DNA of 64,000 nt from Demequina lutea. Its GTDB lineage: Bacteria; Actinomycetota; Actinomycetes; Actinomycetales; Demequinaceae. This document shows positions 33,038-44,869 of the stretch, piece by piece (the first letter of the stretch is position 1; every line of letters begins with the position of its first letter). The translations under genes were made by a program, and so were the position numbers. Location of the stretch: the NCBI RefSeq assembly GCF_013409005.1, contig NZ_JACBZO010000001.1:1-64000 (forward strand), in the 5' to 3' direction. The notes beneath the pieces were generated by a model. It was not told the origin of the DNA. It made no database searches and saw only the letters and a list, made by a program, of their open reading frames with translations.

Positions 33038-34132
33038 ATGGCTAAGTTGCGTCTCGCCATCATCGGCGTTGGAAACTGCGCGACGTCCCTCATTCAGGGG
33101 CTCGAGTTCTACAAGGACGCGAAGGCAGGAGAGACCGTACCCGGCCTCATGCACGTCCAGTTGGGCGACTACCACATCTCCGACATCGAGATCGTGGCCG
33201 CTTTCGACGTGGACTCGCTCAAGGTGGGCAAGGAACTCGTCGAGGCGACCAAGTCGTCCGAGAACAACACCATCACGTTCTGCGATGTCCCCAAGACGGA
33301 CATCCAGGTGCAGCGTGGCGTGACGCTCGACGGCCTCGGCAAGTACTACCGCGAGACCATCACCGAGTCGGACGACGCCTCCGTTGACATCGTCAAGGTC
33401 CTCAAGGACACGCAGGCCGACGTGCTCGTCTCCTACCTTCCCGTGGGTTCGGATGAGGCCGACAAGTTCTACGCGCAGTGCGCGATCGACGCCAACGTCG
33501 CGTTCGTCAACGCCCTCCCCGTGTTCATCGCCTCCGACCCCGTATGGGCCAAGAAGTTCGAGGACGCTGGCGTCCCGATCGTCGGCGACGACATCAAGTC
33601 GCAGGTCGGCGCCACCATCACGCACCGCGTGATGGCGAAGCTGTTCGAAGACCGCGGCGTGCGCCTCGACCGCACGTACCAGCTAAACGTCGGTGGAAAC
33701 ATGGACTTCAAGAACATGCTGGAGCGTGACCGCCTCGAGTCCAAGAAGATCTCCAAGACGCAGGCCGTGACCTCGAACCTCCACGAGGGCCCGCTCGCCG
33801 GGCTCAAGAGCTCGCGCAACGTGCACATCGGCCCGTCCGACTACGTCGCATGGCTCGACGACCGCAAGTGGGCCTACGTCCGCCTCGAGGGTTCCGCGTT
33901 CGGCGAGGTTCCCTTGAGCCTTGAGTACAAGCTCGAGGTGTGGGACTCGCCCAACTCCGCAGGCATCATCATTGACGCGATCCGTTGCGCCAAGATCGCC
34001 AAGGACCGCGGCATCGGCGGACCGATTCTGTCCGCCGCGACGTACTTCATGAAGTCGCCCCCCGTGCAGATGGAAGACACGCTCGGCCGTCAGCACCTCG
34101 AAGAGTTCATCGCGGGTACTCGCGAGCGCTAG
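33038..34132 (+). CDS. ino1: Inositol-3-phosphate synthase
   Basis: NAD-dependent conversion of glucose 6-phosphate to myo-inositol 3-phosphate, the first step to phosphatidylinositol, mycothiol and other actinobacterial inositol compounds. The 364-residue protein has the Rossmann motif [16 protein letters not shown] at the N-terminus, [25 protein letters not shown] and the catalytic-region [13 protein letters not shown] near 220, as in the prokaryotic Ino1 group. It follows padR by 18 nt with AAGGAGACAAGG as a strong ribosome-binding region. A hairpin terminator with a UUCG loop follows 30 nt after the stop. Confidence 0.96.
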
Positions 34133-34143
34133 TCACTAGCACC

Positions 34144-34165
34144 GAGCACTCATCTCTGGCAGCAC
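34144..34165 (+). repeat. Left 22-bp direct repeat flanking a decayed island
   Basis: A 22-bp sequence beginning GAGCACTCATC and ending CTGGCAGCAC, 12 bp after the ino1 stop. The same sequence with one mismatch lies at 36080-36101 in the same orientation. Both copies are also preceded by a GCGAGCGCT/GCAAGCGCT word. Together they enclose about 1.9 kb of remnant and accessory genes. Confidence 0.75.
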
Positions 34166-34204
34166 AAGGGCCGGGTCACCTTCGGGTGACTCGGCCCTTT
34201 GTGT
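34163..34204 (+). terminator. ino1 rho-independent terminator
   Basis: A stem of about 18 bp (CACAAGGGCCGGGTCACC with one G-T type mismatch) around a UUCG tetraloop. The right arm ends CCCTTTGTG. It begins 31 nt after the ino1 stop. No long T run follows, but stem stability and position make a terminator the best reading. Confidence 0.85.
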
Positions 34205-34388
34205 GCAAAAGCACGGTGGGATCAAACGTCAGTTCTTGTGGGGCTGTTGCAGCAGGTCACACCCGTGATTGTGCTGGATCAACGCCTCGCGTCAAGACCT
34301 CTGAGTCAGTCCGTCAGGACCTCGCTCCAACTGCGCCTCGGAGAATTTGGTCGATGGGTACGGTTGATAAGTACCAGTGCCTACCTCG

Positions 34389-34532
34389 CCTCACCATGAG
34401 GTACTGCACAGCGAGCGGTTCGTTGACCTGGCACCGGCCGACGTGCGGGCCGCCCTGGTCGACGAGGGTGTGTACTTGTGCTCGCGGTCCACCTTCTATC
34501 GGCTGCTGCGGGGACTGTCCCTCTCACCTTGA
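34389..34532 (+). pseudogene. IS3-family transposase (OrfB) remnant
   Basis: This frame reads VLHSERFVDLAPADVRAALV and then DEGVYLCSRSTFYRLLR before meeting a stop. It matches the linker just before the DDE core in IS3-family OrfB transposases (typical form: SERFVDxAPAQVxAxLLDEGxYLCSxSTMYRxLR). No DDE catalytic domain follows and no upstream OrfA is recognisable, so only about 47 codons survive. It is the scar of an insertion sequence inside the region bounded by the 22-bp repeats. Confidence 0.82.
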
Positions 34533-34597
34533 TATGGAATAGTGAGGGAGCCAACCAAGAGAAGGCTCGCACACCACATGCAAGGAGAGTCTGCAAC

Positions 34598-34753
34598 GTG
34601 AACCAGACGACACCTGTCGCCCTCCGGCCGAGCCCAACCGATCTGGCGGAGACCTTTGACCGGGTGATGCGGCTCCGCCCCCGTCTTGACGTCCTCGCGC
34701 GGAATCCGCGCGGCTCGCAAGTGACGCAGATCGTTTCAACCGTGAACGGGTGA
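34598..34753 (+). CDS. Small 51-residue protein coupled to the class V aminotransferase
   Basis: I do not recognise this protein. It starts at GTG 34598 behind a strong AAGGAGAG (34582-34589) and its TGA overlaps the GTG start of the aminotransferase, so it is placed to be translated. The sequence begins MNQTTPVALRPSPTDLAETF and is basic and helical in the middle (RVMRLRPRLDVLARNPRG). It could be a true small protein, a leader peptide that couples translation, or the remnant of a longer gene. It lacks the Cys/Ser/Thr-rich core typical of many modified peptides. Confidence 0.5.
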   Translation: MNQTTPVALRPSPTDLAETFDRVMRLRPRLDVLARNPRGSQVTQIVSTVNG

Positions 34754-35904
34754 CTGGGATGTCTGGACTTGAGGGCGTGCGCGAACTGTTTCCAATCACG
34801 CAAGAGTTGGTTTACCTGGACAACGCACACCAGGCGCCGCTGTCGAGTCTGGTTCGCCGCGAGTTAGACCGGTTCTACGACGACGCCGAGTGGAGAGCCG
34901 GACCGAAGGAGAAATGGGCAATCCGTGTCGAGGAGGTCCGAGTCGCCCTCGCGGCATTTCTCGGAACGACGCCTGACACGATCGCCTTCACGAAGAACAC
35001 CTCGGAGGGCGTGAACATTGCGGCCACGACCCTGCCATGGCGGCCGGGCGACAACGTGGTGCTCATGGCTGGCGAGCACGCCAACCTCGCGTACGGGTGG
35101 ATGCATCAGCGCCGCAACGGTCTTGAGGTACGGGTAGTGCCCGCTGCGTCAGAAGGCGCTGATGGCGAGACCTTTCGCCCGGTAGTCGATGCTCAGACAC
35201 GGGCAGTTGCGGTGTCCCACGTTGCTTACGACACCGGCCAGCGAAACGACATCGCGTCAATCGGACGGCTCTGCGCTGACCGTGGGATTCCCCTCGTCGT
35301 GGACGCCATGCAGTCGGTCGGAGTGTTTCCGGTGGAGGCGGAGGGTGTTGACTGGCTGGCCGCTGGGTGTCACAAGGGCCTGCTAACCCCGCACGGGCTT
35401 GGGTTCGTGCACCGAGCGCCACGATTCGCCGAGTTGGTGCCCACCTATGTGGCCGCCGCGAGCATCGAGGGCTCCCCCCACGACCCTGAGGTGTCCTTCG
35501 ACACGGAGATCGCCCTGTCGCTGACGGCGCGCCGACTGGAAATCGGCAACCTCAACTACGCCGCGATTCACGCGCTCGGCGCTTCCTTGGACCTTATCGG
35601 TCAGGTCGGCCTCGCCACGATCACGGAACGGGTGCTCGCCCTCGGCGACTACCTCGACGGAGAACTTGCACCGCTCGGCGTGGAACCGATCGGCCCCACA
35701 CGCAGGGACCGACGATCGCACATTCGTGTACTCGATCTGCCCGGCACCGGTTGGCAGGACTACCTGGCTGACCGTGCCATCAGGGTCACCGAGGTCAGGG
35801 ATCGGGTCCGGGTGTCGTTCGGCCTGTTTACGGCCGAGGAAGACATCGACGCATTGGTGCGCGCGATCGGCGATCGGTTGCGGCACGGCGCTCTTGGAAA
35901 TTAG
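34750..35904 (+). CDS. Class V PLP-dependent aminotransferase (cysteine desulfurase/epimerase-like)
   Basis: 384-residue fold-type I enzyme. YLDNAHQAPLSSLVRREL at the N-terminus and FTKNTSEGVNIAATTL near residue 78 are typical of class V; the PLP Asp/Gln pair is in VVDAMQSVGVFP near 185, and the aldimine lysine in AAGCHKGLLTPHGLGF near 213. The cysteine loop of true cysteine desulfurases is not evident, so an isopenicillin-epimerase-like or lyase role is more likely. It starts at GTG 34750, overlapping the small upstream ORF; ATG 34759 is an alternative. An aspartase remnant follows, so this may be the last intact gene of a decayed operon. Confidence 0.82.
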   Translation: MTGMSGLEGVRELFPITQELVYLDNAHQAPLSSLVRRELDRFYDDAEWRAGPKEKWAIRVEEVRVALAAFLGTTPDTIAFTKNTSEGVNIAATTLPWRPGDNVVLMAGEHANLAYGWMHQRRNGLEVRVVPAASEGADGETFRPVVDAQTRAVAVSHVAYDTGQRNDIASIGRLCADRGIPLVVDAMQSVGVFPVEAEGVDWLAAGCHKGLLTPHGLGFVHRAPRFAELVPTYVAAASIEGSPHDPEVSFDTEIALSLTARRLEIGNLNYAAIHALGASLDLIGQVGLATITERVLALGDYLDGELAPLGVEPIGPTRRDRRSHIRVLDLPGTGWQDYLADRAIRVTEVRDRVRVSFGLFTAEEDIDALVRAIGDRLRHGALGN

Positions 35905-35939
35905 GACCAAGAATGGTGAGCGAGTAGAGCACCGTCACG

Positions 35940-36068
35940 ATGCGGACCGAGACTGACACGCTGGGGAGCATGGCTGTCCCGGCCGATGTGTACTGGGGAA
36001 TCCACACGGCCAGCGGCGGCCAAGTCCCATCAGACCGTGTTCACAACCTCACGGGGAACTGCAGCTAG
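35940..36068 (+). pseudogene. aspA: Aspartate ammonia-lyase (aspA) N-terminal remnant
   Basis: ATG 35940 opens a 42-codon frame that begins MRTETDTLGSMAVPADVYWG and continues IHTA. This is the N-terminus of actinobacterial aspartases (RTETDxLGxxEVPADAYWGIHTxRA). Homology stops at about 36011, after which the frame runs through unrelated sequence to TAG at 36066. Over 400 codons including the catalytic SS loop are missing. The break lies about 70 bp left of the right-hand direct repeat, so a deletion or recombination event probably removed the rest of the gene. Confidence 0.8.
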
Positions 36069-36079
36069 TCGCAAGCGCT

Positions 36080-36101
36080 GAGCACTCATCACTGGCAGCA
36101 C
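36080..36101 (+). repeat. Right 22-bp direct repeat flanking a decayed island
   Basis: Matches the repeat at 34144-34165 in 21 of 22 positions and in the same orientation. It marks the right boundary of the segment with the IS3 and aspA remnants. Confidence 0.75.
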
Positions 36102-36188
36102 GAAGTCCCCGTCCCCCCTTTTGCGGACTACCGCGTTCGTCGAGACACGGGTTGACTCGATAGCGACAGGTACAAAGGCGCGCAACAG

Positions 36189-36240
36189 ATGGCGCCGGTG
36201 AGACCGACCGGTGGAAGCCGGTCGGTGTCGCCGGCGCCAT
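36189..36240. other. Long perfect-like hairpin (23-bp arms, 6-nt loop)
   Basis: Arms 36189-36211 and 36218-36240 are complementary at 21 of 23 positions and begin and end ATGGCGCCGG/CCGGCGCCAT. It lies in a 466-bp stretch without an intact gene, 130 bp before a small membrane-protein gene. No T run follows on either strand. It may be a transcript barrier, a processing signal or a miniature mobile element. Confidence 0.65.
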
Positions 36241-36370
36241 GCGGGGGCAACGCAATGAGCATCGGGACGCGGCCTTCGTCTAGGCCATGAGTCGACCGTG
36301 CGTGAGCACGACCCAAGCCGCGGCCGAGAACACCGGACCGCACACCTGAGCCATGATCGGAAGAAGGACG

Positions 36371-36667
36371 ATGGCAGACAATGGCGCCGCGCCGCAGGAG
36401 TTCACTCAGCAGGGCCAGCCCGGCACCACCCAAGCGTCGGGCGGCCGACCGAGCGGTTTCGAGGTGGCGGACAAAGTGGCACACGGCGCTGGCCGTGTCG
36501 CCCACGGTATCGCCTGGTTCCTCATGAAGACGTGGGGCCTAATCCTCACGCTCGGCGGCATTGCGTTGCTCTTCGCCGACCCGGGGAAGTACTGGTGGGC
36601 GTGCGCGGGTATCGCCACGTACGGGGTCTACCTGTTACTCCCCGGCAGCAAGACCGTGGTCTGGTAG
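36371..36667 (+). CDS. Small two-TM membrane protein, first gene of a signalling operon
   Basis: 98 residues: a polar, Gln/Gly-rich N-terminal 40 residues, then an amphipathic stretch (VADKVAHGAGRVAHGIAWFL) and two hydrophobic segments near 55-73 and 78-93, ending GSKTVVW. No family is recognised. ATG 36371 has GAAGAAGG upstream; an in-frame ATG at 36353 is less well placed. It is followed after 10 nt by another tiny membrane protein and then by the methyltransferase/response regulator and kinase genes, all same strand and tightly packed. It may be a sensory or accessory subunit for the kinase. Confidence 0.62.
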   Translation: MADNGAAPQEFTQQGQPGTTQASGGRPSGFEVADKVAHGAGRVAHGIAWFLMKTWGLILTLGGIALLFADPGKYWWACAGIATYGVYLLLPGSKTVVW

Positions 36668-36677
36668 CGGGCCCGCC

Positions 36678-36800
36678 ATGCCCCCATTCCTGATCTGGGT
36701 GGCTTTCTTCGGAATCATGGCCGGATTCATCATCGGTCGCGAAAAGCTGCGCAGGCGGGCCGCCGAGAACCGGCGCCGTCGCCTCGGGGACGATGCTTAG
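36678..36800 (+). CDS. Tiny single-TM protein (40 residues)
   Basis: Begins MPPFLIWVAFFGIMAGFIIG, one membrane span, followed by a strongly basic cytoplasmic tail (REKLRRRAAENRRRR). It starts at ATG 36678, 10 nt after the previous stop, and its 3' end overlaps the next gene by 8 nt, which favours a real translated ORF. No clear Shine-Dalgarno sequence precedes it, so translation may depend on the upstream gene. Function is unknown. Confidence 0.5.
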   Translation: MPPFLIWVAFFGIMAGFIIGREKLRRRAAENRRRRLGDDA

Positions 36801-38241
36801 TCGCGGTTACCGCGTCTTCTGGACGCTGTATGGGCTCGTTTACGACGCGATTTGGGACTCGCCGCTGACCAAGGCCGTGGCCGACGACGCGTGTGCAGGC
36901 ATCGCTCCGGGCGCCCTCGTTGTCGATCTGGGCTGCGGTACGGGTCTGTCCTCCAGGGCGCTCGTCGACCGTGGTGTGACCGTGCTTGGAGTGGACGGGG
37001 TTAAGGGCCGCTTGCGACGAGCCACCCGCAAGCATCGCGTCTCGTCGTCTCGGCTGGCGGAGGTGTCAGCCACGGAACTTTCGCCGAAAATCGCCGACGT
37101 CGTCCTCGCAATCAACGTGCTACATGTCCACCCTGAGCCTGCCGCGGTCATCGCTGAGATGGTCCGTCTGGCAGCGCCGCGAGCCCTCGTTGTGGTCGCG
37201 TTCCCCGCAGTGGGCGCCGATGCCCGAACGGTCCGTCGCGCCGACCGGGCGGCCGGGCGGAGCTGGGTTGGCTCGGCAGCGGCGGCGGCGCTCCGGCATC
37301 TGGTCGCTGCTCCCGCTGGGGCGGCCGGAGTGCAGGTGCATACGGAAGCGATGGTGGGCCTCGTTCTCGATCAGGCTTGCCACGCCTTTAGAGCGACCCT
37401 TCTCCACGATCGCGTCCTCTTCGGCTGTCAACGCGTCGTCACGATTCAGGTGGCCACGGAGCCGGCGCCACCGATGCCGCCCGAATATTGCCCCACGGAC
37501 CCCGTGCGGTCCGATAGCCTGTCGCCAACAGTCGACGGGACGGCGGGTGGCGTGAATCACGAAGCACCGACACCCCAGGGGCGCGCGCCCCTCCTGGTTG
37601 CCGCCATCGACGACCACCCGGTGATGATCCGTGGACTCCAGGCATTCCTGAACGATTCGGACGACGAGATCGCGGTGGAATCCATTAGTAGCACCGTCGA
37701 CGAGTACCTCACCACGGACTATTCGCGCGTTGCTGTGGTGCTTCTCGACGTCCACCTGGGCGATGGCAGCCCGGTCGAACTCAACGTCGAACGCCTACGC
37801 GAGTCCGGCGCCGAGGTCCTGCTCTACACGAGCGAGCACCGGCCCGCAGTAGTCCAGCGGGCCTTCGCGAGCGGGGCGCTCGGTCTGGTGTTGAAGGAGG
37901 ACCCGGAGGATCGGCTGCTCGAAGGAATCCGGGCGGTGGCAGATCACGGCATATATGAATCGAGCAGGTTAGCCCACCAAATTCTCAGCGATCCGCGGGG
38001 CGCGGTGCGATTCACCCCCGCTGAGCTCCAGGTCCTCAGGCACCTGAGCACCGGTTTGCCATGGGCGACCATTGCCAGGCGAATGGATCGGTCGGTGAGC
38101 ACCGTCTACGAGCACAGAGACCGCGCGATCAAGAAGTGGCAAAAGGCGACGCAGACCCAATTGGCGGGGCCAAAGGATCTCCTCTATCAGGCGACCATCA
38201 CGGGTCACGTCGACCAAGAAGACCTTGACGAACAGCGGTAG
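36793..38241 (+). CDS. SAM-dependent methyltransferase fused to a NarL-type response regulator
   Basis: One uninterrupted 482-codon frame with two full modules. Residues 1-215 are a class I methyltransferase (SAM motif VVDLGCGTG at 43-51, motif IV-like ADVVLAINVLHVHP). A Pro/Ser-rich linker follows (about 216-265). Residues 266-480 are a response regulator: acidic pair Asp273/Asp274, phospho-acceptor Asp319 in VVLLDVHLGD, Lys in VLKEDPEDR, and a LuxR-type helix-turn-helix (FTPAELQVLRHLSTG, ATIARRMDRSVSTVYEH). GTG 37552 (residue 254) could be a separate start giving a normal 229-residue regulator, with TAGCCT as a possible -10 at 37515-37520. The histidine kinase gene overlaps the 3' end. A methyltransferase receiver fusion is very uncommon. 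Confidence 0.75.
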   Translation: MLSRGYRVFWTLYGLVYDAIWDSPLTKAVADDACAGIAPGALVVDLGCGTGLSSRALVDRGVTVLGVDGVKGRLRRATRKHRVSSSRLAEVSATELSPKIADVVLAINVLHVHPEPAAVIAEMVRLAAPRALVVVAFPAVGADARTVRRADRAAGRSWVGSAAAAALRHLVAAPAGAAGVQVHTEAMVGLVLDQACHAFRATLLHDRVLFGCQRVVTIQVATEPAPPMPPEYCPTDPVRSDSLSPTVDGTAGGVNHEAPTPQGRAPLLVAAIDDHPVMIRGLQAFLNDSDDEIAVESISSTVDEYLTTDYSRVAVVLLDVHLGDGSPVELNVERLRESGAEVLLYTSEHRPAVVQRAFASGALGLVLKEDPEDRLLEGIRAVADHGIYESSRLAHQILSDPRGAVRFTPAELQVLRHLSTGLPWATIARRMDRSVSTVYEHRDRAIKKWQKATQTQLAGPKDLLYQATITGHVDQEDLDEQR

Positions 38242-40522
38242 CCGCTCGAATGGTCCCATTGGAATAGCGTCGTTCGGCCAGCGTCGGGAGGCGATGGAAC
38301 GAGCGCTGCGGCTGCCAGTCGCGATTTTTGTCACGCTTCTCTCGCTCACCATTACGACGATGATCCTGGGGCAAGGCGTCACCAAGAATGCCCTCGTGTG
38401 GCTAGGGCTACCGCTCCTGTGGCTCGCGACGATGTCGCTGTGGAGAGGCGTCCAGCGCGGTGGCATCGGGAACGGTGAGGTCTTGTCGCTGGCCGTCGCG
38501 ACGGTCGGCCTTTACTACGCGCTCTTCTCCCAATCCACAATCGTCCTTCCGCCGGGCGCTCGCGACGCCCTCCTCTCCGCCGCCACGGTCCTGGCCATGA
38601 TCTTCGCGACTCCCTGGGTGCGAGTTGTTGTTCTGGCCGGAGGCATTGGCGCGATGTTGCCACCCGAGATACTCCAGAACGGCACGTTGGCCGCACTCGA
38701 GTTCATCGGACCCGTCGTGGCGACTGGATTTGCGGCGTACGGCGCCTCCCGCTTTCTGCGAGACGCCGCCGATCGGGCGGATATCGCCGCGGAGCGATTG
38801 AGCGAGGCGTCGACCCGTGCGGCGATCCTCGCGGAACGGCGCAGCTCACAGCGGGACATCAACGGGATTCTCCACGACGATGTGATTTCCGCACTGCGAC
38901 TGACCCGTCTCGAAACGCAAGACTTGGGAGGAATTCGTGAGGCGGCTTCCCGCGCACTGATCGCGCTCAAAAGCGCCTCAGCAGCGCCGGAGGCCACCGA
39001 CGACGCGCCGAGGCGGCTCGCGCCGGCGCTGCGCGCTGCCGCAGACCGGTGGGGCGCTCGATTCACCACCGAAGGGCCGCCGGTCGAGACCACACTCGCC
39101 GTTGCGGACGCGGTCGTAGCCGCCGCCGGTGAACTCATGCGGAACGCCGTGCGGCACGCGAGCGCGAGCCGCGTGACAGTCGAGTTGTGCGGCGGACCCA
39201 CCGGATTCGAGGTGGCGGTGTCCGACGACGGCATCGGCTTCGACGCGGGTGACGCCGAACGCCGAGGGCACGGGCTCATCCATTCAGTCGAGAAGCGCAT
39301 ACAAGCCGTTGGAGGTTCCGTCAGCATCTCGAGCCTCCTGGGAGCTGGGACAGTCGCGACTCTCCGGTGGCTACCGCCCCCGACCGATAGTGTCTCCCTG
39401 CGGCGAGGCGATTTTGCGATGGGCCTCGGCGACCTCAAGCGGCCCCTAGACCTGGCGGTATTGCCCTTTCTCGCTTGCACCACTCTCTACGTCATCCACA
39501 ACCAGATGCTTGGGCAACCGCTGTGGCTCCTCGCGTGGTGGATCCTTGGCGTCGCGTTGACGCTGGCCGCGCTCAAGGGGGTCAATACCGGGATCTCCGG
39601 GTGGCTCTCCTTCGCAAGCGCCGCGACGCTTCTTGGGGGCTCGCTGGCTTTCGGACTGACGGTGCCGCGCTCGTCGCTCAGTGACTTCTCGACCTGGCCG
39701 CTCGGGGCCTTCGCGGGAGTCCTCATCGTTCTCTACTTTGGGCGCATACGGTCATGGGAATCGATCGGGATTCTCGTCGGCCTGCAGGTGTTGGTGTGGA
39801 TACCGGCCTACCAGGGGCACTGGGACAACGTGAGCGGGGTGGCGGGTTTGCTCCACGCCATGCCCGCGAGTCTCTCGACCGTGGGGCCCCTTCTGATCGC
39901 GATCGTCTTCGCTCGCGAAGTACGGCGCCTGCACTCGATCACGTTGAGCGCGATCGGTGCAGCGGACGTCACCATGCAGGTCAATGCCAGGAGCCTCGCA
40001 CGCGAGGCGACGATCGCACGACGCCTTGCCCACGTTCGCGAAGAGGTCGTGCCGTTCCTCAGAATCCTCGCGGACGCCTCGCACATCGACGCCCGCTGGA
40101 CGGATGAGGCCTCCCGTCTTGAACAGCTCGTTCGCGACGAACTGCACCTTCCAGGCGTCCTCGATCGTCGGGCGCGCGAGGCGCTCAGGAACGCCAGGAT
40201 GGCGGGGTGCATGGTGAGTTTTCACGTGCCCGATGCCGATATTCAGGCCCCCCGCGCGGCACAGGCCCTCATTCTGGCGGCGCTCACATCGGGCCCACCG
40301 CCGCGAGAGTTCACGCTCGCCGTCTCTGTCGACGAACACACAGGAGCCGAACGCATCAGCGCAGTGACCGTGCCGGGTGACCCCCAGCGGGCACGTGAGC
40401 TCGCGACTCGTTTCGCCGACAACATGGTCAGCAGCGACTTCTCGCCGGAGGCGACGTGGGTCGAGCTCGAGGTGGGTTCAGAACCCGAGTTCCTCGCCGT
40501 GGCACCTTCTCACCAGATGTGA
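38225..40522 (+). CDS. NarL-type sensor histidine kinase with a second, degenerate membrane/kinase half
   Basis: 765 residues. First half: about five TM segments (33-175), a dimerisation helix with probable phospho-His217 in NGILHDDVISALR, and an intact ATPase (N-box GELMRNAVRHA, G-box DDGIGFD, then GHGLIHSVEKRIQAVGG). Second half (from about 405): another group of TM segments and a cytoplasmic part (REATIARRLAHVREEVVPFL, then a region ending AALTSGPPPREF) that resembles a kinase core without the N and G boxes. The start is uncertain: TTG 38225 overlaps the regulator gene; ATG 38294 has GGGAGG only 2 nt away. It is the cognate sensor of the preceding regulator by position. Confidence 0.8.
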   Translation: MTNSGSRSNGPIGIASFGQRREAMERALRLPVAIFVTLLSLTITTMILGQGVTKNALVWLGLPLLWLATMSLWRGVQRGGIGNGEVLSLAVATVGLYYALFSQSTIVLPPGARDALLSAATVLAMIFATPWVRVVVLAGGIGAMLPPEILQNGTLAALEFIGPVVATGFAAYGASRFLRDAADRADIAAERLSEASTRAAILAERRSSQRDINGILHDDVISALRLTRLETQDLGGIREAASRALIALKSASAAPEATDDAPRRLAPALRAAADRWGARFTTEGPPVETTLAVADAVVAAAGELMRNAVRHASASRVTVELCGGPTGFEVAVSDDGIGFDAGDAERRGHGLIHSVEKRIQAVGGSVSISSLLGAGTVATLRWLPPPTDSVSLRRGDFAMGLGDLKRPLDLAVLPFLACTTLYVIHNQMLGQPLWLLAWWILGVALTLAALKGVNTGISGWLSFASAATLLGGSLAFGLTVPRSSLSDFSTWPLGAFAGVLIVLYFGRIRSWESIGILVGLQVLVWIPAYQGHWDNVSGVAGLLHAMPASLSTVGPLLIAIVFAREVRRLHSITLSAIGAADVTMQVNARSLAREATIARRLAHVREEVVPFLRILADASHIDARWTDEASRLEQLVRDELHLPGVLDRRAREALRNARMAGCMVSFHVPDADIQAPRAAQALILAALTSGPPPREFTLAVSVDEHTGAERISAVTVPGDPQRARELATRFADNMVSSDFSPEATWVELEVGSEPEFLAVAPSHQM

Positions 40523-40643
40523 GGCTTTCGGTTAGCAGTGAATCGGATCGCGAGGCCATCGACGCGATCGCCCAGGAGCGCTATTGTGACCTCAAAGCCG
40601 CACGTGGTTGCGTGGGCAAGGGCACGGGCACGAGGAGGCGGCG

Positions 40644-40886
40644 ATGAGTCGCTGTGAGAGTTGTGGCATGCCGCTCAACGATGCCACGCAGGGCACCGAG
40701 GCCGATGGCGCGCCCAGCGCCGCCTACTGCCTGACGTGCTACGCCGACGGCTCTTTCACGTCGCCCGATGCCTCCATCGACGACGTACGCGAGGCCGCCA
40801 TCGCCGCGCTCGTCGCAGAGGGCGTGCCGCCCTTGACCGCCACTCGCCTCACGAGCTCGATTGCCTCCCTGCCGCGCTGGGCCTAG
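40644..40886 (+). CDS. Small zinc-ribbon protein
   Basis: 80 residues with CESCGMPL at the N-terminus and YCLTCYADGSF at about 29-39, four cysteines in C-x2-C...C-x2-C order as in the putative zinc-ribbon family (CxSCGMPL type). The C-terminal half is a short helical region rich in Ala. ATG 40644 has an excellent GAGGAGG 8 nt upstream. It lies 121 nt after the kinase gene, so it may form its own unit. Partner and function are unknown. Confidence 0.78.
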   Translation: MSRCESCGMPLNDATQGTEADGAPSAAYCLTCYADGSFTSPDASIDDVREAAIAALVAEGVPPLTATRLTSSIASLPRWA

Positions 40887-40928
40887 GGCCTCAATAGCCG
40901 CCAATATCGCATCGTGCGGGGGACCCGC

Positions 40929-41555
40929 CTAAGCTGGCGCGAAACGCGAGCCCGCCACGATCGCGTCGGCGAGGTGCAGGAGCGTTTGGGGGATGTCTGC
41001 GAGCGGGCTCGTGACCGTCACCAACACCAGGCGCTTGCTACCCGGGACCGTGCGCCAATAGTCGGCGCTGAAGGCCCGGATCGGGACATCCTCGAGGCCC
41101 TCGGCCACGACCGTCTCGGCGATGTGCCACCGACGCGCCGACGCGCCATCCGCACACGGTCGCACCTCCCAGCCGCCTCCATCCCCGATGGCCTTCATGG
41201 CGGCCATGAAGCCCGCGATCACGTCCTCGGGGCGGGTACCTATCACGGGGCTCATGCGGATGGCCTCCGGCGTGAAGACCGAAACGGCGATGGGGGCGGG
41301 GACCCCGGGCGAGACCTCGTGGCACAGGAAGGTCGACTCGAGAGCGGCGGCCGGATCCGCCCGCTCCACCAGGAGCCCCAGCGCCTTGCGCATGTCCGCC
41401 CTCGCCGTGGCGAGCTCATCGGCTCGACCCATGGAGAGCCGCACGAAGGCGCGGATGCGTTTGTCGGTCAGTTCGGGGCGCGACGGGTCGAGCTGCACCC
41501 ACGTTCCCGGCAGGCGCAAGACGAGCCGCGGATTCACGACGCGGGCGCCGGTCAC
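40929..41555 (-). CDS. Uncharacterised 208-residue protein downstream of the WXG/hydrolase genes
   Basis: I do not recognise the family. From GTG 41555 the protein starts TGARVVNPRLVLRLPGTWVQ, has no signal peptide or TM segment, and looks like an alpha/beta soluble protein with regions such as FLCHEVSPGVPAPIAVSVF and VPGSKRLVLVTVTSPLADI. The frame is open upstream to 41648, but that overlaps the preceding gene. It follows the hydrolase gene by 52 nt on the same strand. By position it could be an immunity protein or a chaperone for the hydrolase, which is inference only. Confidence 0.6.
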   Translation of the reverse strand: MTGARVVNPRLVLRLPGTWVQLDPSRPELTDKRIRAFVRLSMGRADELATARADMRKALGLLVERADPAAALESTFLCHEVSPGVPAPIAVSVFTPEAIRMSPVIGTRPEDVIAGFMAAMKAIGDGGGWEVRPCADGASARRWHIAETVVAEGLEDVPIRAFSADYWRTVPGSKRLVLVTVTSPLADIPQTLLHLADAIVAGSRFAPA

Positions 41556-41607
41556 GGCCTGTAGCCCTTGAGAATGGCCGCGCTTCCCGCCGGTCGCTTC
41601 ACTCCCC

Positions 41608-43407
41608 CTACTCGCTGAACGCATATTGGGTGTGCTCGACCACGACATGTTCCGGGGTGGTGGGGTCGTCCACCGGCAGCACCACCGCGAAGTCGCTGTT
41701 GAGGTCCGGCCCGCCGTTCGTCGCGTTGTACCTGAGGTGATCCTGAAGCGTGTCGACGTAGTCGGTGTTCTTGTGGCCCATGAGGTTTCCGGTTTTGATG
41801 TCGGTGCTGGCGCCGTCCGAGCGCGGCCCGTCCCACACCGACAAGTGATGTGCGGTGTCTGGCACGTCGTCGATCATGTCAGCGCGGTGCACGGGATCGA
41901 GCATGTGCTTGACCTGCAACACGGGGATGTTGGGGGAGATGGCCAAGTGGTCGATCGGCGAGCCCGCGCACACGAGCCCCGCGTAGTTGTAGCCGCCCGC
42001 ATGGGACTCGATCAGGCTGCCACCCATGATCCCCCCGAGGCTCCAGCCCGCGAGGACCACGGGGTCGCCTTGCGGAATCCCTGCCTGGCCCATGGCCTTG
42101 AGAACGGCCTCCTCGTATTGACACCGCAGCTCGGGGTACAGGATGAGCATGAGGTCGGCATCAAGGTCATTGGGCGCGCCCTTGTCTCCACCGAGGACCC
42201 AGTCCTCGGTCGACGGCAATGTCACAATCCAGCTGACGTCGCCTTGCTCGTCAACGATGCGGGCCACGTCCACGACGGCCTGCGCATCGCCGCCGACGTC
42301 GTCAACGATGCCGGCCCATTCCAGGAGGTCGGCCACGTCTTCGGGCGCGTCCGTGTCGAGCGCTCCAAGGGCCTTGACCTTGTCCGCCGTGAGCGTCGAC
42401 GGGTCAATCTCCCGAACATCGGGTACGGGCTTCGACAGCTCATTCTCGATGCGCGACAGAATGAACAGGGCCAGGGGCGGGCACGCCGCCTCGAGTGCGT
42501 TCACCACGAACCGGATCCGGTCGAGGCCCTTGAGGCCCAGGGTGTTCGCGGTCAGGAGGGCCCGGGCTCCGACCGAGAAGAGGAGCATCAGTTCGGCTAG
42601 CACCGCGACGAGGGCCACGATCGCGAGCACGACGATCGCGGCCACCACCGCCGCAAGGATCACCAAGAGTTGCACCAGCACGATCGCGAACGCGATCACC
42701 GCGGCGGCAACGAGCACCGCGACGAGGAAGATCGCCACGGCCTGGGCGACCAGCGTCAGGACTTCCTGTAGGAATGAGATGGCCCACTCCGCCAGGTCAT
42801 CCAGCAGATGTGTGAAGGCGTTGATGGCCTCGTTGGCGTAGTCCCGCCAGCCATCATTGGTGCCCTCAAAGGCCGCCACGATGCGCCTCATGGTGCTGTG
42901 CGCAGCCGAGTCAAGCCGGGATAGCGCGGCCGCGTATTCCGTGTGCGCATCCGCGCTCGCTTGCTGGGCATGGTCGACGGCGTTTCGCGCGACCAAGTGC
43001 GCGTGACGCCACTCTTCGGTGGTGTACGGATCGTTCGGGTTCATCGACGCGACGCGCAGCTGCTGTTCCGCGTGGTCGAGTTGGTATTGCGCCCAGTGAA
43101 GATGGGCCTGAGCGGCCTCCTCGTCCCGAATGGCGGCATTCGCGTCGGCGTGGAACCGATGAAGTTCGACCGAATAGTCCTGGAGTGCCGCCCGAGCCCC
43201 CTGGTAACGCCCATGGGCCTGAGCGAGAGCCGACTGCGCCTTGCCACTTCGGTTGCTCGCCGCCTCGATGGCCCTTCCCGAGCCCTCAGCGATGGAGGAC
43301 GCGATGTCGCTCGCGGCCCTCTCGAGTGCCCGCTCGGTCACCAGGTACTGCCGCACGGACTCGTCAAGAGCGGCCGGGTTGCCCGCTGGGGCGCTCAACG
43401 TGGTCAT
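41608..43407 (-). CDS. WXG/LXG-like helical protein fused to a membrane segment and an alpha/beta hydrolase
   Basis: 599 residues in three parts. Residues 1-190 are long helices (ALERAASDIASSIAEGSGRA, then AHLHWAQYQLDHAEQQ), like N-terminal targeting domains of type VII secretion cargo. Residues 205-285 form a very hydrophobic block with two or three spans. Residues 330-599 look like an alpha/beta hydrolase with nucleophile Ser456 in LAGWSLGGIMGG, a likely Asp in KHMLDPVHR and a late His in VVVEHTQYAF. The 5' end overlaps the small WXG-like gene by 4 nt. It may be a secreted or surface lipase, or an antibacterial effector. No ESX core gene is in the window. Confidence 0.72.
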   Translation of the reverse strand: MTTLSAPAGNPAALDESVRQYLVTERALERAASDIASSIAEGSGRAIEAASNRSGKAQSALAQAHGRYQGARAALQDYSVELHRFHADANAAIRDEEAAQAHLHWAQYQLDHAEQQLRVASMNPNDPYTTEEWRHAHLVARNAVDHAQQASADAHTEYAAALSRLDSAAHSTMRRIVAAFEGTNDGWRDYANEAINAFTHLLDDLAEWAISFLQEVLTLVAQAVAIFLVAVLVAAAVIAFAIVLVQLLVILAAVVAAIVVLAIVALVAVLAELMLLFSVGARALLTANTLGLKGLDRIRFVVNALEAACPPLALFILSRIENELSKPVPDVREIDPSTLTADKVKALGALDTDAPEDVADLLEWAGIVDDVGGDAQAVVDVARIVDEQGDVSWIVTLPSTEDWVLGGDKGAPNDLDADLMLILYPELRCQYEEAVLKAMGQAGIPQGDPVVLAGWSLGGIMGGSLIESHAGGYNYAGLVCAGSPIDHLAISPNIPVLQVKHMLDPVHRADMIDDVPDTAHHLSVWDGPRSDGASTDIKTGNLMGHKNTDYVDTLQDHLRYNATNGGPDLNSDFAVVLPVDDPTTPEHVVVEHTQYAFSE

Positions 43408-43745
43408 CGGCCTTGGCCTCCGCTTGCGGCCGGCGAGGGCATGGCCGCCGTGGCCTGCCGGGCGGCTCCCCTCATGTGGGACGCCATGTTGCCCTCGAGA
43501 TCCGCCATGGTGTTGTTGATGGCGTCAAAGACGTCGGCGAGTGTCGTGACGTCGTCAATGAACCTCTGCCTGTGGATGTCCCACTGCGACCCGAAGTCCC
43601 GCACGGTGCGCGCAAGGTCTTGGTGGCCGACCGCAGCGGCGGCGGCGTCGGCCTGGCTATGCGCGGCGGCGAGATCCGCGGCAATGGAACGCACCCTGCG
43701 GGCTTGGCTATGGAGGGCGTCGCTCCGAATGACCAGGTCGCTCAT
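43404..43745 (-). CDS. WXG100-like small helical protein
   Basis: 113 residues from ATG 43745, almost entirely helical, with a central turn at FGSQWDIHRQRF (Trp near residue 56) between two long amphipathic helices (RSDALHSQARRVRSIAADLA before it and DDVTTLADVFDAINNTMADL after it). This is the outline of WXG100/ESX-type secretion substrates, though the exact WxG triplet is not present. The start overlaps the stop of the upstream 62-codon gene and its own stop overlaps the hydrolase start, so the three are coupled. The likely role is a secretion partner or chaperone of the hydrolase. Confidence 0.65.
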   Translation of the reverse strand: MSDLVIRSDALHSQARRVRSIAADLAAAHSQADAAAAAVGHQDLARTVRDFGSQWDIHRQRFIDDVTTLADVFDAINNTMADLEGNMASHMRGAARQATAAMPSPAASGGQGR

Positions 43746-43930
43746 GACGCGTGGCCGCGTGCCCCGAGGCTCGCCCACATCTCGGCGTCACGGCGACGCG
43801 CCTCCCCGGCGATGGCCGAGTCAACGGTCACCTCACGGCCTTGGGCAAGGCCCGTCGCGATCGCGACGAGCTCCTCCACTGCATGGTCGTGCGACGCCTG
43901 TGCGCCGTCGTCAACCCCTGTGCGTCGCAC
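43742..43930 (-). CDS. Small 62-residue protein, first gene of the WXG/hydrolase cluster
   Basis: Starts at GTG 43930 with GAAGGGGG 7 nt upstream and ends with a TGA that overlaps the start of the WXG-like gene. The sequence (DHAVEELVAIATGLAQGREV, then SAIAGEARRRDAEMWASLGA) is polar and helical, without a signal peptide or TM segment. No family recognised. Its translation signals and coupling favour a real gene. Confidence 0.55.
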   Translation of the reverse strand: MRRTGVDDGAQASHDHAVEELVAIATGLAQGREVTVDSAIAGEARRRDAEMWASLGARGHAS

Positions 43931-44161
43931 TTGGACACCCCCTTCTCTGGTGCCAGAGCGTATTGGGGGGTCAGGGCGCGGTGGAGTGGGAAAGGTTCGC
44001 CTGGGGACACGCCTCCGTCCGGGCATCCTGGGCACGGCGCGCGGAGGGCGGGAGGGGCGTCGAGAGTGGTCGCGAGGCGCACGCCGTCACGCGCACGCCC
44101 GTGCGGCTAGGCGCCGGCGTCAATTGCGGCCGGCGCCAGTTGCGGCGGCTCCCGCTGAGCG

Positions 44162-44869
44162 CTAGTTACCGGGGGTGAAGAAGGGGTCGTCCGTGCCGGG
44201 CCGGGAAGCGGGAGGCGACTGCGACGGAGGCGCGGCGGGATACCCGGGCTGCGCCTGGTAACCGGGCTGCGCTGGCGGTTCGGGATAGACGGGATACGCC
44301 GGCTGCGCGGGATACGTCGGCTGCGCGGGCTGTGCGGGATACGCCGGCTGCGCGGGATACGCCGGCTGTGCGTACGTTGCCTGTGCGTAGCCCTGAGGCG
44401 GGTACCCACCATTGCCGTGTTCGGCGGCCTTTGGGTCCGGTCCGTACTGATTGGTGTACGGCTGGCCGTCGAGCAACTCGAACACGAGCAACACGATGCT
44501 CACGGGGGGCACGAACGCGATGAGATACCACCAGCCCGAGCGACCGGTGTCATGCAGGCGCCGCACCACCACCGCCAAACTCGGAAGGAACAGGGCGAGG
44601 GCGATCACCATCCACAGCGCCCCGCCACCAATCACCGGTCCCCAGTTGGCGTCACTTAACGCCCCGGAGGAAATCTTGCCGGTCTGCGCGTCGACGTGTG
44701 AGACAACGCTGTTAATCACCTGGATGTACCCGATCCCGAAGATGATCATGAAGGGAAGCTGCACAAGGAAGCTGAACAGTGTGAACCACCAGTATTCGGA
44801 CCGGCGCGCGCGGCCACTGAACGTGGCGTACTGACGGAAAACCGACTTAACGGCCTGACCAAATGACAT
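44162..44869 (-). CDS. DUF805 membrane protein with Pro/Ala/Tyr/Gln-rich tail
   Basis: 235 residues. The N-terminal 130 residues are a DUF805 domain: AVKSVFRQYATFSGRARRSE near the start, YWWFTLF and the conserved VRRLHDTGRSGWWYLIAFVP. Four hydrophobic segments are present. The C-terminal 90 residues are a low-complexity tail with repeats of PAYPAQ type, encoded by short tandem DNA repeats (about 44287-44395). DUF805 proteins have no agreed function. The start is ATG 44869. It is monocistronic and stands between the WXG cluster and an MFS gene. Confidence 0.86.
   Translation of the reverse strand: MSFGQAVKSVFRQYATFSGRARRSEYWWFTLFSFLVQLPFMIIFGIGYIQVINSVVSHVDAQTGKISSGALSDANWGPVIGGGALWMVIALALFLPSLAVVVRRLHDTGRSGWWYLIAFVPPVSIVLLVFELLDGQPYTNQYGPDPKAAEHGNGGYPPQGYAQATYAQPAYPAQPAYPAQPAQPTYPAQPAYPVYPEPPAQPGYQAQPGYPAAPPSQSPPASRPGTDDPFFTPGN
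44287..44395 (-). repeat. Short tandem repeats encoding the DUF805 tail
   Basis: Units of 15-24 bp built on GGGATACGCCGGCTGCGC encode repeated PAYPAQ peptides. Several units are identical or differ by one base, so slippage between strains is likely. Confidence 0.8.

Follow-up and report, generated by a model that had tools for sequence, protein, structure and literature searches.

A methyltransferase fused in frame to a NarL-type response regulator in Demequina lutea, probably a lone chimera of two modules found apart in other genomes

When a methyltransferase and a two-component response regulator are read in one open frame, are the two activities coupled in a single signalling protein, or did two unrelated modules simply come to be joined? 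We addressed this question for an operon of the actinomycete Demequina lutea, lying in a window of 64,000 nucleotides (the whole stretch of DNA analysed: RefSeq assembly GCF_013409005.1, contig NZ_JACBZO010000001.1, positions 1 to 64,000 of the forward strand). A sequence-only reading of this DNA had reported a frame that joins a class I SAM methyltransferase (MT) to a NarL-type response regulator (RR), within what it took to be a compact signalling operon (Table 1). The MT-RR fusion is an unusual protein architecture, correctly described by that reading, and it is seen in one genome. It is real, but probably a lone chimera, and gives no ground yet for a new signalling mechanism.

Table 1. Features of the D. 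lutea operon, its flanks and the related cassettes. Positions are those of the window unless a locus handle (L) precedes them.
Feature	Position	Strand	Remarks
Class V aminotransferase, cysteine-desulfurase-like	34750-35904		Operon flank, inside the block missing in six congeners
small1, 98-aa membrane protein, first cassette gene	36371-36667	+	ATG 36371; alternative start ATG 36353
small2, 40-aa single-span membrane protein with basic tail	36678-36800	+	40-codon counterparts in G403 and G860
MT-RR fusion ORF	36793-38241	+	ATG start, 482 codons, single open frame
Class I SAM methyltransferase (MT) module	36793-37476	+	Pfam; DLGCGTG intact; homologues in G403, G203, G860 and G292
Pro/Ser/Thr-rich linker, about 45 residues	37477-37596	+	Frame 0 read-through; weak coding signal
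GTG, probable ancestral RR start and possible internal start	37552-37554	+	Anti-SD energy; N-termini of free regulators
NarL-type response regulator (RR)	37597-38241	+	Receiver 37597-37929, HTH 38011-38163; Pfam
Sensor kinase	38294-40522	+	Frame 38225-40522; HATPase_c E 4.1e-10 (Pfam)
Zinc-ribbon protein	40644-40886		Operon flank, inside the block missing in six congeners
Cassette of small membrane protein(s) and UbiE/PmtA-like MT	L207 9409-10529; L087 8490-9460; L096 5569-6543; L088 2611-3541; window 36371-37476		

The fusion frame is open from end to end and keeps the motifs of both modules. At residues 44-134 it matches Methyltransf_11 (48.1 bits against a Pfam cut-off of 21.2, E 1.9e-12), and this Methyltransf_11/25-type domain together with its DxGxGxG motif places the MT among the class I SAM methyltransferases. 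Residues 269-379 match Response_reg (36.9 bits against 30.2, E 4.5e-9), and the alignment, judged by eye, shows a phosphorylation site with its acidic pair, phosphoacceptor Asp, Thr and Lys in place. The helix-turn-helix region is closer to threshold: GerE, at about residues 407-457, scores 23.2 bits, marginally below its Pfam cut-off of 23.5, and HTH_23 in the same region scores 24.8 bits, barely over its cut-off of 24.6. The RR is as such of NarL type, a receiver with a phosphoacceptor site followed by a LuxR/GerE helix-turn-helix for which the GerE match is marginal. The two membrane proteins precede the MT with a 10-nt gap and an 8-nt overlap, just as had been reported; small1 has one hydrophobic segment over threshold and passes the cut-off of no Pfam or NCBIfam family. 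Codon statistics favour the annotated frame for small1, small2, MT, RR and the kinase alike.

The kinase consists of an N-terminal membrane part, an LHDD H-box and a HATPase domain at about 39107-39379, followed at about 39410-40522 by another membrane part and a C-terminus that resembles a degenerate kinase. The overlap of its gene with the end of the fusion, also part of the earlier description, holds only for a start at TTG 38225. This codon is weak (computed anti-SD pairing of -1.6, versus -6.4 for ATG 38294), and the start is likelier to be ATG 38294, which would leave a 52-nt gap after the fusion.

Among the sequences examined, MT and RR share one frame only in the genome of D. lutea itself, and no close relative carries the fusion. 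A frame-by-frame check of 208 loci turned up 122 frames with an MT match and 76 with one to the RR; the four with both are all copies from the D. lutea genome. Among the matches listed for 47 genomes of the family (1e-12), the SAM-binding part and the regulator were found together solely in D. lutea; one family match, in G027, spans query positions 144-467, has two internal stops and starts behind the SAM-binding part. D. lutea excepted, none of the matches listed covers both parts in 396 genomes of the order (1e-19, four first-look candidates scored per genome) or in 149 from the family to which G403 belongs (1e-18, at most ten per genome), searches in which a diverged fusion could be missed; the order, phylum and G403-family genome sets are samples of larger groups. 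In plasmids, 105 records match, none with one place covering 80% of the query, and the 15 plasmid rows among the matches listed are regulator matches. The MT query yielded one weak match in phages. Two pattern searches were set aside: that with the back-translated fusion turned up 33 pattern stretches, none of them confirmed as a relative, and that built on the MT alignment gave at least 80 loci that look like generic methyltransferases, the DLGCGTG motif being too common. The sequence-only reading knew of no described system with this set of genes; in the portions of the open-licence literature that were available, we likewise found neither such a system nor a description of a NarL-type regulator fused to a methyltransferase of this kind.

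What other genomes do contain is the two modules apart. The first is a cassette in which one or more small membrane protein genes lie directly before the MT, an arrangement present in D. lutea, G403, G860, G292 and G203, with MT identities of 46% in G403, 41% in G860 and 39% in G203 and a further MT homologue in G292. In G403 a small1 relative (57% identity, E 1.7e-21), a 40-codon counterpart of small2 (L087 8737-8859; E 2.7e-4 and 1.8e-4) and the MT follow one another. G860 has the same order, with small1 (E 2e-10), a small2, counted by eye at 40 codons, that overlaps the MT start, and an MT of 225 codons with its own stop; small2 is exactly 40 codons long in three genomes, D. lutea included. 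In G292 a small1 relative (E 3.1e-7) stands directly upstream of the MT. The small hydrophobic protein in the corresponding place in G203 looks unrelated to small1, with no significant match between the two. Three relatives have a stop at the end of the MT itself, and the cassette is without an attached regulator in G860, G292 and G203; in G403, too, no regulator is fused to it.

The cassette looks uncommon on the sequences sampled. At 1e-3, small1 matches were found in 12 of the 396 order genomes, D. lutea among them; an adjoining MT was shown in only two of the 11 others, G403 and G292, and the remaining matches are weak. The MT itself was matched in 11 of the 396 at 1e-11, and its profile in three of 396 sampled phylum-level genomes at 1e-20, both counts again including D. 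lutea. Two further MT relatives (G004 and G063, 39% identity) have no small1 match nearby, and the phylum-level matches in G766 and G419 have no regulator in the MT frame. Small membrane proteins with an MT make up a unit in genomes of four families of the order, one that this locus exposes even if the fusion is accidental and that could be studied in its own right.

The second module is a NarL-type regulator with a kinase. The closest regulators are free-standing, with identities of 45-46% in G263, 45% in G170, 43% in G118 and 38% in G243. In G263 and G118 a kinase of 744-784 residues, doubled in the same way as that of D. lutea, comes after the regulator, and in G170 a kinase frame lies downstream of the regulator; no kinase match was seen beside the regulator of G243. 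The regulator-kinase stretches read in G263, G170, G118, G391, G134, G128 and G074 contain no MT match. More distantly related is an RR-HK-HK2 trio of the congeners (L056, L057, L065-L067), with the kinase halves as separate genes; D. lutea carries such a trio at a second place, about 216390-219282 of G000:C1 (L064 5391-8283). The kinase of the window is not itself odd, since it has the form of the congeners' HK and HK2 pair, fused. The HK2 of L064 passes no Pfam cut-off, yet aligns with the C-terminal half of the window kinase. By eye, the trio in L064, and similarly those in L065, L066 and L067, lies near exodeoxyribonuclease- and orotate phosphoribosyltransferase-like genes.

These comparisons bear on how the operon had been understood. 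Looking for the same architecture elsewhere, as the sequence-only reading had proposed, returned the cassette and the regulator-kinase pair separately and, in the sequences examined, never the fusion. That reading had also named, as an outcome that would speak against it, relatives in which a stop codon separates the modules; separate modules were indeed found, but an adjacent pair divided by a stop was not seen. The claim that the four genes form one evolved signalling set is not supported, as relatives carry the two modules apart.

The genomic setting points to a block that was probably acquired. Six congeners share with D. lutea the order of the genes on either side, the myo-inositol-phosphate synthase gene at 33038-34132 and those that start at 44162; the interval in between (34133-44161) is 10.0 kb long in D. 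lutea versus 1.3-3.1 kb in the congeners. At the congener site the aminotransferase, small1, the fusion, the kinase and the zinc-ribbon protein had no tblastn match (1e-6) in any of the six loci read, out of ten in which the synthase was located; the queries did not include small2. Three of the six had a match to the gene at 41608-43407. Third-position GC is low in four genes, the aminotransferase, MT, RR and kinase: it is 0.74-0.77 there, where 43 other ORFs called in the window average 0.83 (sd 0.04). This signal of acquisition is not uniform, because small1 and the zinc-ribbon gene have an ordinary value of 0.85. No repeats bound the block over 33900-44200, no tRNA lies within the window, and a promoter scan returned no sites. 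The length of the interval, and partly its gene content, also vary among the congeners themselves, like a small variable site.

The explanation that we favour, with somewhat better than even confidence, is a chimeric operon on a probably acquired block, in which the cassette and the two-component module were fused in frame. The small1-small2-MT cassette would have come to lie directly upstream of a NarL-type regulator and its double membrane kinase and, with the MT in the same frame and lacking a stop before the RR, one joined protein would result. From the families involved, the kinase would sense a membrane condition and phosphorylate the receiver, which would then bind DNA and probably control its own operon. 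The tethered MT would work independently, probably on a membrane-associated substrate and in concert with small1 and small2. The main effect of the fusion would be production of enzyme and regulator in fixed ratio rather than allosteric coupling. In favour of a chimera are the open frame, the intact motifs, the presence of both modules apart elsewhere and the absence of the block at the congener site. Against it stand a two-component trio near the cassette in G403, the weak codon signal of the MT, and a possible indel just before GTG 37552.

The last two points each belong to an alternative. MT homology extends in frame 0 up to about residue 224, with no stop thereafter before the RR; a ribosome starting at ATG 36793 should therefore make the fusion, and translation of the MT would yield a single MT-linker-RR protein of about 50 kDa. 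The linker between them is weakly coding-like. Codons 225-253 score below 98.4% of 315 in-frame segments and above 98.7% of 630 out-of-frame segments, and the same score is attained by 19.6% of 92 overlapping intergenic segments. Across the linker as a whole, codon statistics prefer frame 0 (-0.03 versus -0.50 per codon). Might MT and RR nonetheless be truly or recently separate genes, the MT ending at TGA 37553-37555, with a 1-nt indel, by mutation or sequencing error, mimicking a fusion? Frame +1 is stop-free from 36980 until exactly that TGA, which begins one base into GTG 37552 in a GTGA arrangement, and the sequence just before the GTG is G-rich. A modelled frameshift between MT and RR scores worse across most of the linker, but the last ten or so codons do not distinguish the two cases, and a shift placed in the last two codons before the GTG is 2.3 nats better than none; a single indel within these few codons would unlink MT from RR. 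By alignment, the N-termini of several free-standing regulators match the position of GTG 37552, and its computed anti-SD energy of -9.2 is the best among 32 in-frame start codons, narrowly so, as GTG 37888, deep within the regulator, reaches -9.1. This anti-SD support is weak, because random positions reach such an energy in 5-10% of cases. An A after a start codon is common by chance, and the assembly is near-finished, with 3.04 Mb of 3.10 Mb in one of two contigs. With frame 0 favoured by the MT homology and by the linker as a whole, we consider separate genes unlikely; within the fusion, GTG 37552 may supply additional free regulator.

That same plausible internal start would serve if the MT were a decaying passenger and only the regulator from GTG 37552 were used. 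The codon signal of the MT is below typical (0.22-0.35 per codon versus a median of 0.61 for 29-codon pieces of window genes), and a GG of three aligned relatives is RA in D. lutea. Yet the signal in frame 0 is clearly positive, the SAM-binding motif is kept, and 250 codons run without a stop; small1 and small2 are also intact, and small2 overlaps the MT start. We regard decay as very improbable.

Phospholipid N-methyltransferases of the PmtA kind methylate phosphatidylethanolamine and have an N-terminal amphipathic membrane helix. The solved structure nearest to the MT by sequence is 8ys9, a phospholipid N-methyltransferase, with E 5.2e-9 over residues 5-148 for the MT module alone and 7.5e-16 for a profile of four MT sequences. 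The PmtA of this structure we take to be an R-type phospholipid N-methyltransferase, partly from the portion available of PMC12139422. We do not call the MT a PmtA, because it scores 18.1 bits against a cut-off of 390 for NF045882, the sole PmtA model among the NCBIfam matches listed, which is named for Legionella and is possibly too narrow for a fair test. It is a distant relative, lies beside two small membrane proteins and is fused to a regulator, all of which set it apart from PmtA, and its substrate is a prediction: given the nearest solved relative and the company of small1 and small2 in the cassette, the best inference is that it acts on something membrane-associated.

Of the known systems, the closest kind are the NarL/FixJ two-component systems with membrane kinases (among NCBIfam models, MctR/UhpA/NarL/MadR for the regulator and MacS for the kinase, with solved structures for NarL, 1a04, and DesR, 4ldz), which likewise pair a receiver and GerE-type helix-turn-helix with a HATPase kinase bearing an LHDD H-box, in adjacent genes. 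D. lutea differs in the methyltransferase at the N-terminus of its regulator and in its doubled kinase with a degenerate second half, and the curated NCBIfam cut-offs are missed by far among the models listed; for MacS, the kinase scores 46.5 bits with NF047322 against a cut-off of 300. CheR, a receptor-methylating enzyme, belongs to a different methyltransferase family. The Pfam matches and the listed NCBIfam matches include no CheR family, and no chemoreceptor was noticed among the operon's neighbours. In the part available of PMC3447774, CheR, including CheR-TPR fusions, clusters with multidomain response regulators, so that there too a methyltransferase and receiver-domain proteins share one signalling locus. 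Matches to a defence library, namely of the MT to mad2 (8.2e-11), of the aminotransferase to SspA/DndA and, weakly, of the regulator to CARF models, were judged to be generic domain matches.

Coupling within the fusion is the remaining alternative. In enzyme-output response regulators, receiver phosphorylation alters an attached enzyme. Here, phosphorylation of the receiver could similarly alter MT activity, or the status of the methyl donor or substrate could feed back on DNA binding. Putative allosteric coupling in either direction is possible, both modules having kept their active-site motifs, and in a second, distant genome a trio from this two-component family neighbours the MT cassette. 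However, MT and RR are joined solely in D. lutea and each exists without the other, the linker is only weakly coding-like, and an AlphaFold model of the fusion is uninformative on the interface (mean pLDDT 36.7). Such a functional fusion appears quite improbable. An extended version, in which a single phosphorylation would set gene expression and, at the same time, how far a membrane component is methylated, or methylation would gate transcription, with the small proteins as putative anchors of the MT and G403 as an unfused forerunner, is equally a long shot. If made as one protein, the chimera that we favour would be a response regulator bearing a small-molecule-type methyltransferase, of which we found no example in the available portions of the open-licence literature. 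It would also be a natural case in which to ask whether enzymes of this kind can come under receiver control.

The second genome just mentioned, G403, is the main lead in the other direction. There an RR-HK-HK2 trio precedes the cassette at a distance of 1.7 kb, and all ORFs called in the space between are on the opposite strand (L087 3776-8859). The regulator of this trio is the best of six matches to the D. lutea RR in that genome, and its HK2 gene is matched, at 1.2e-37, by a profile made from the HK2 genes of the congeners. This neighbourhood suggests that the MT and two-component modules may be functionally linked after all. It is found in one of the four other cassette genomes: no regulator match was seen in about 39 kb read of G292, nor a regulator near the cassette in G860 (20 kb read) or G203 (an 11.6-kb contig). 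More such neighbours would make a functional link likelier.

The MT gene of G403 has some peculiarities of its own. No ATG, GTG or TTG start lies between small2 and the first conserved residues (L087 8860-9751), and the frame has no stop at the expected end and continues to 9751, over a stretch where a different gene seems to occupy another frame.
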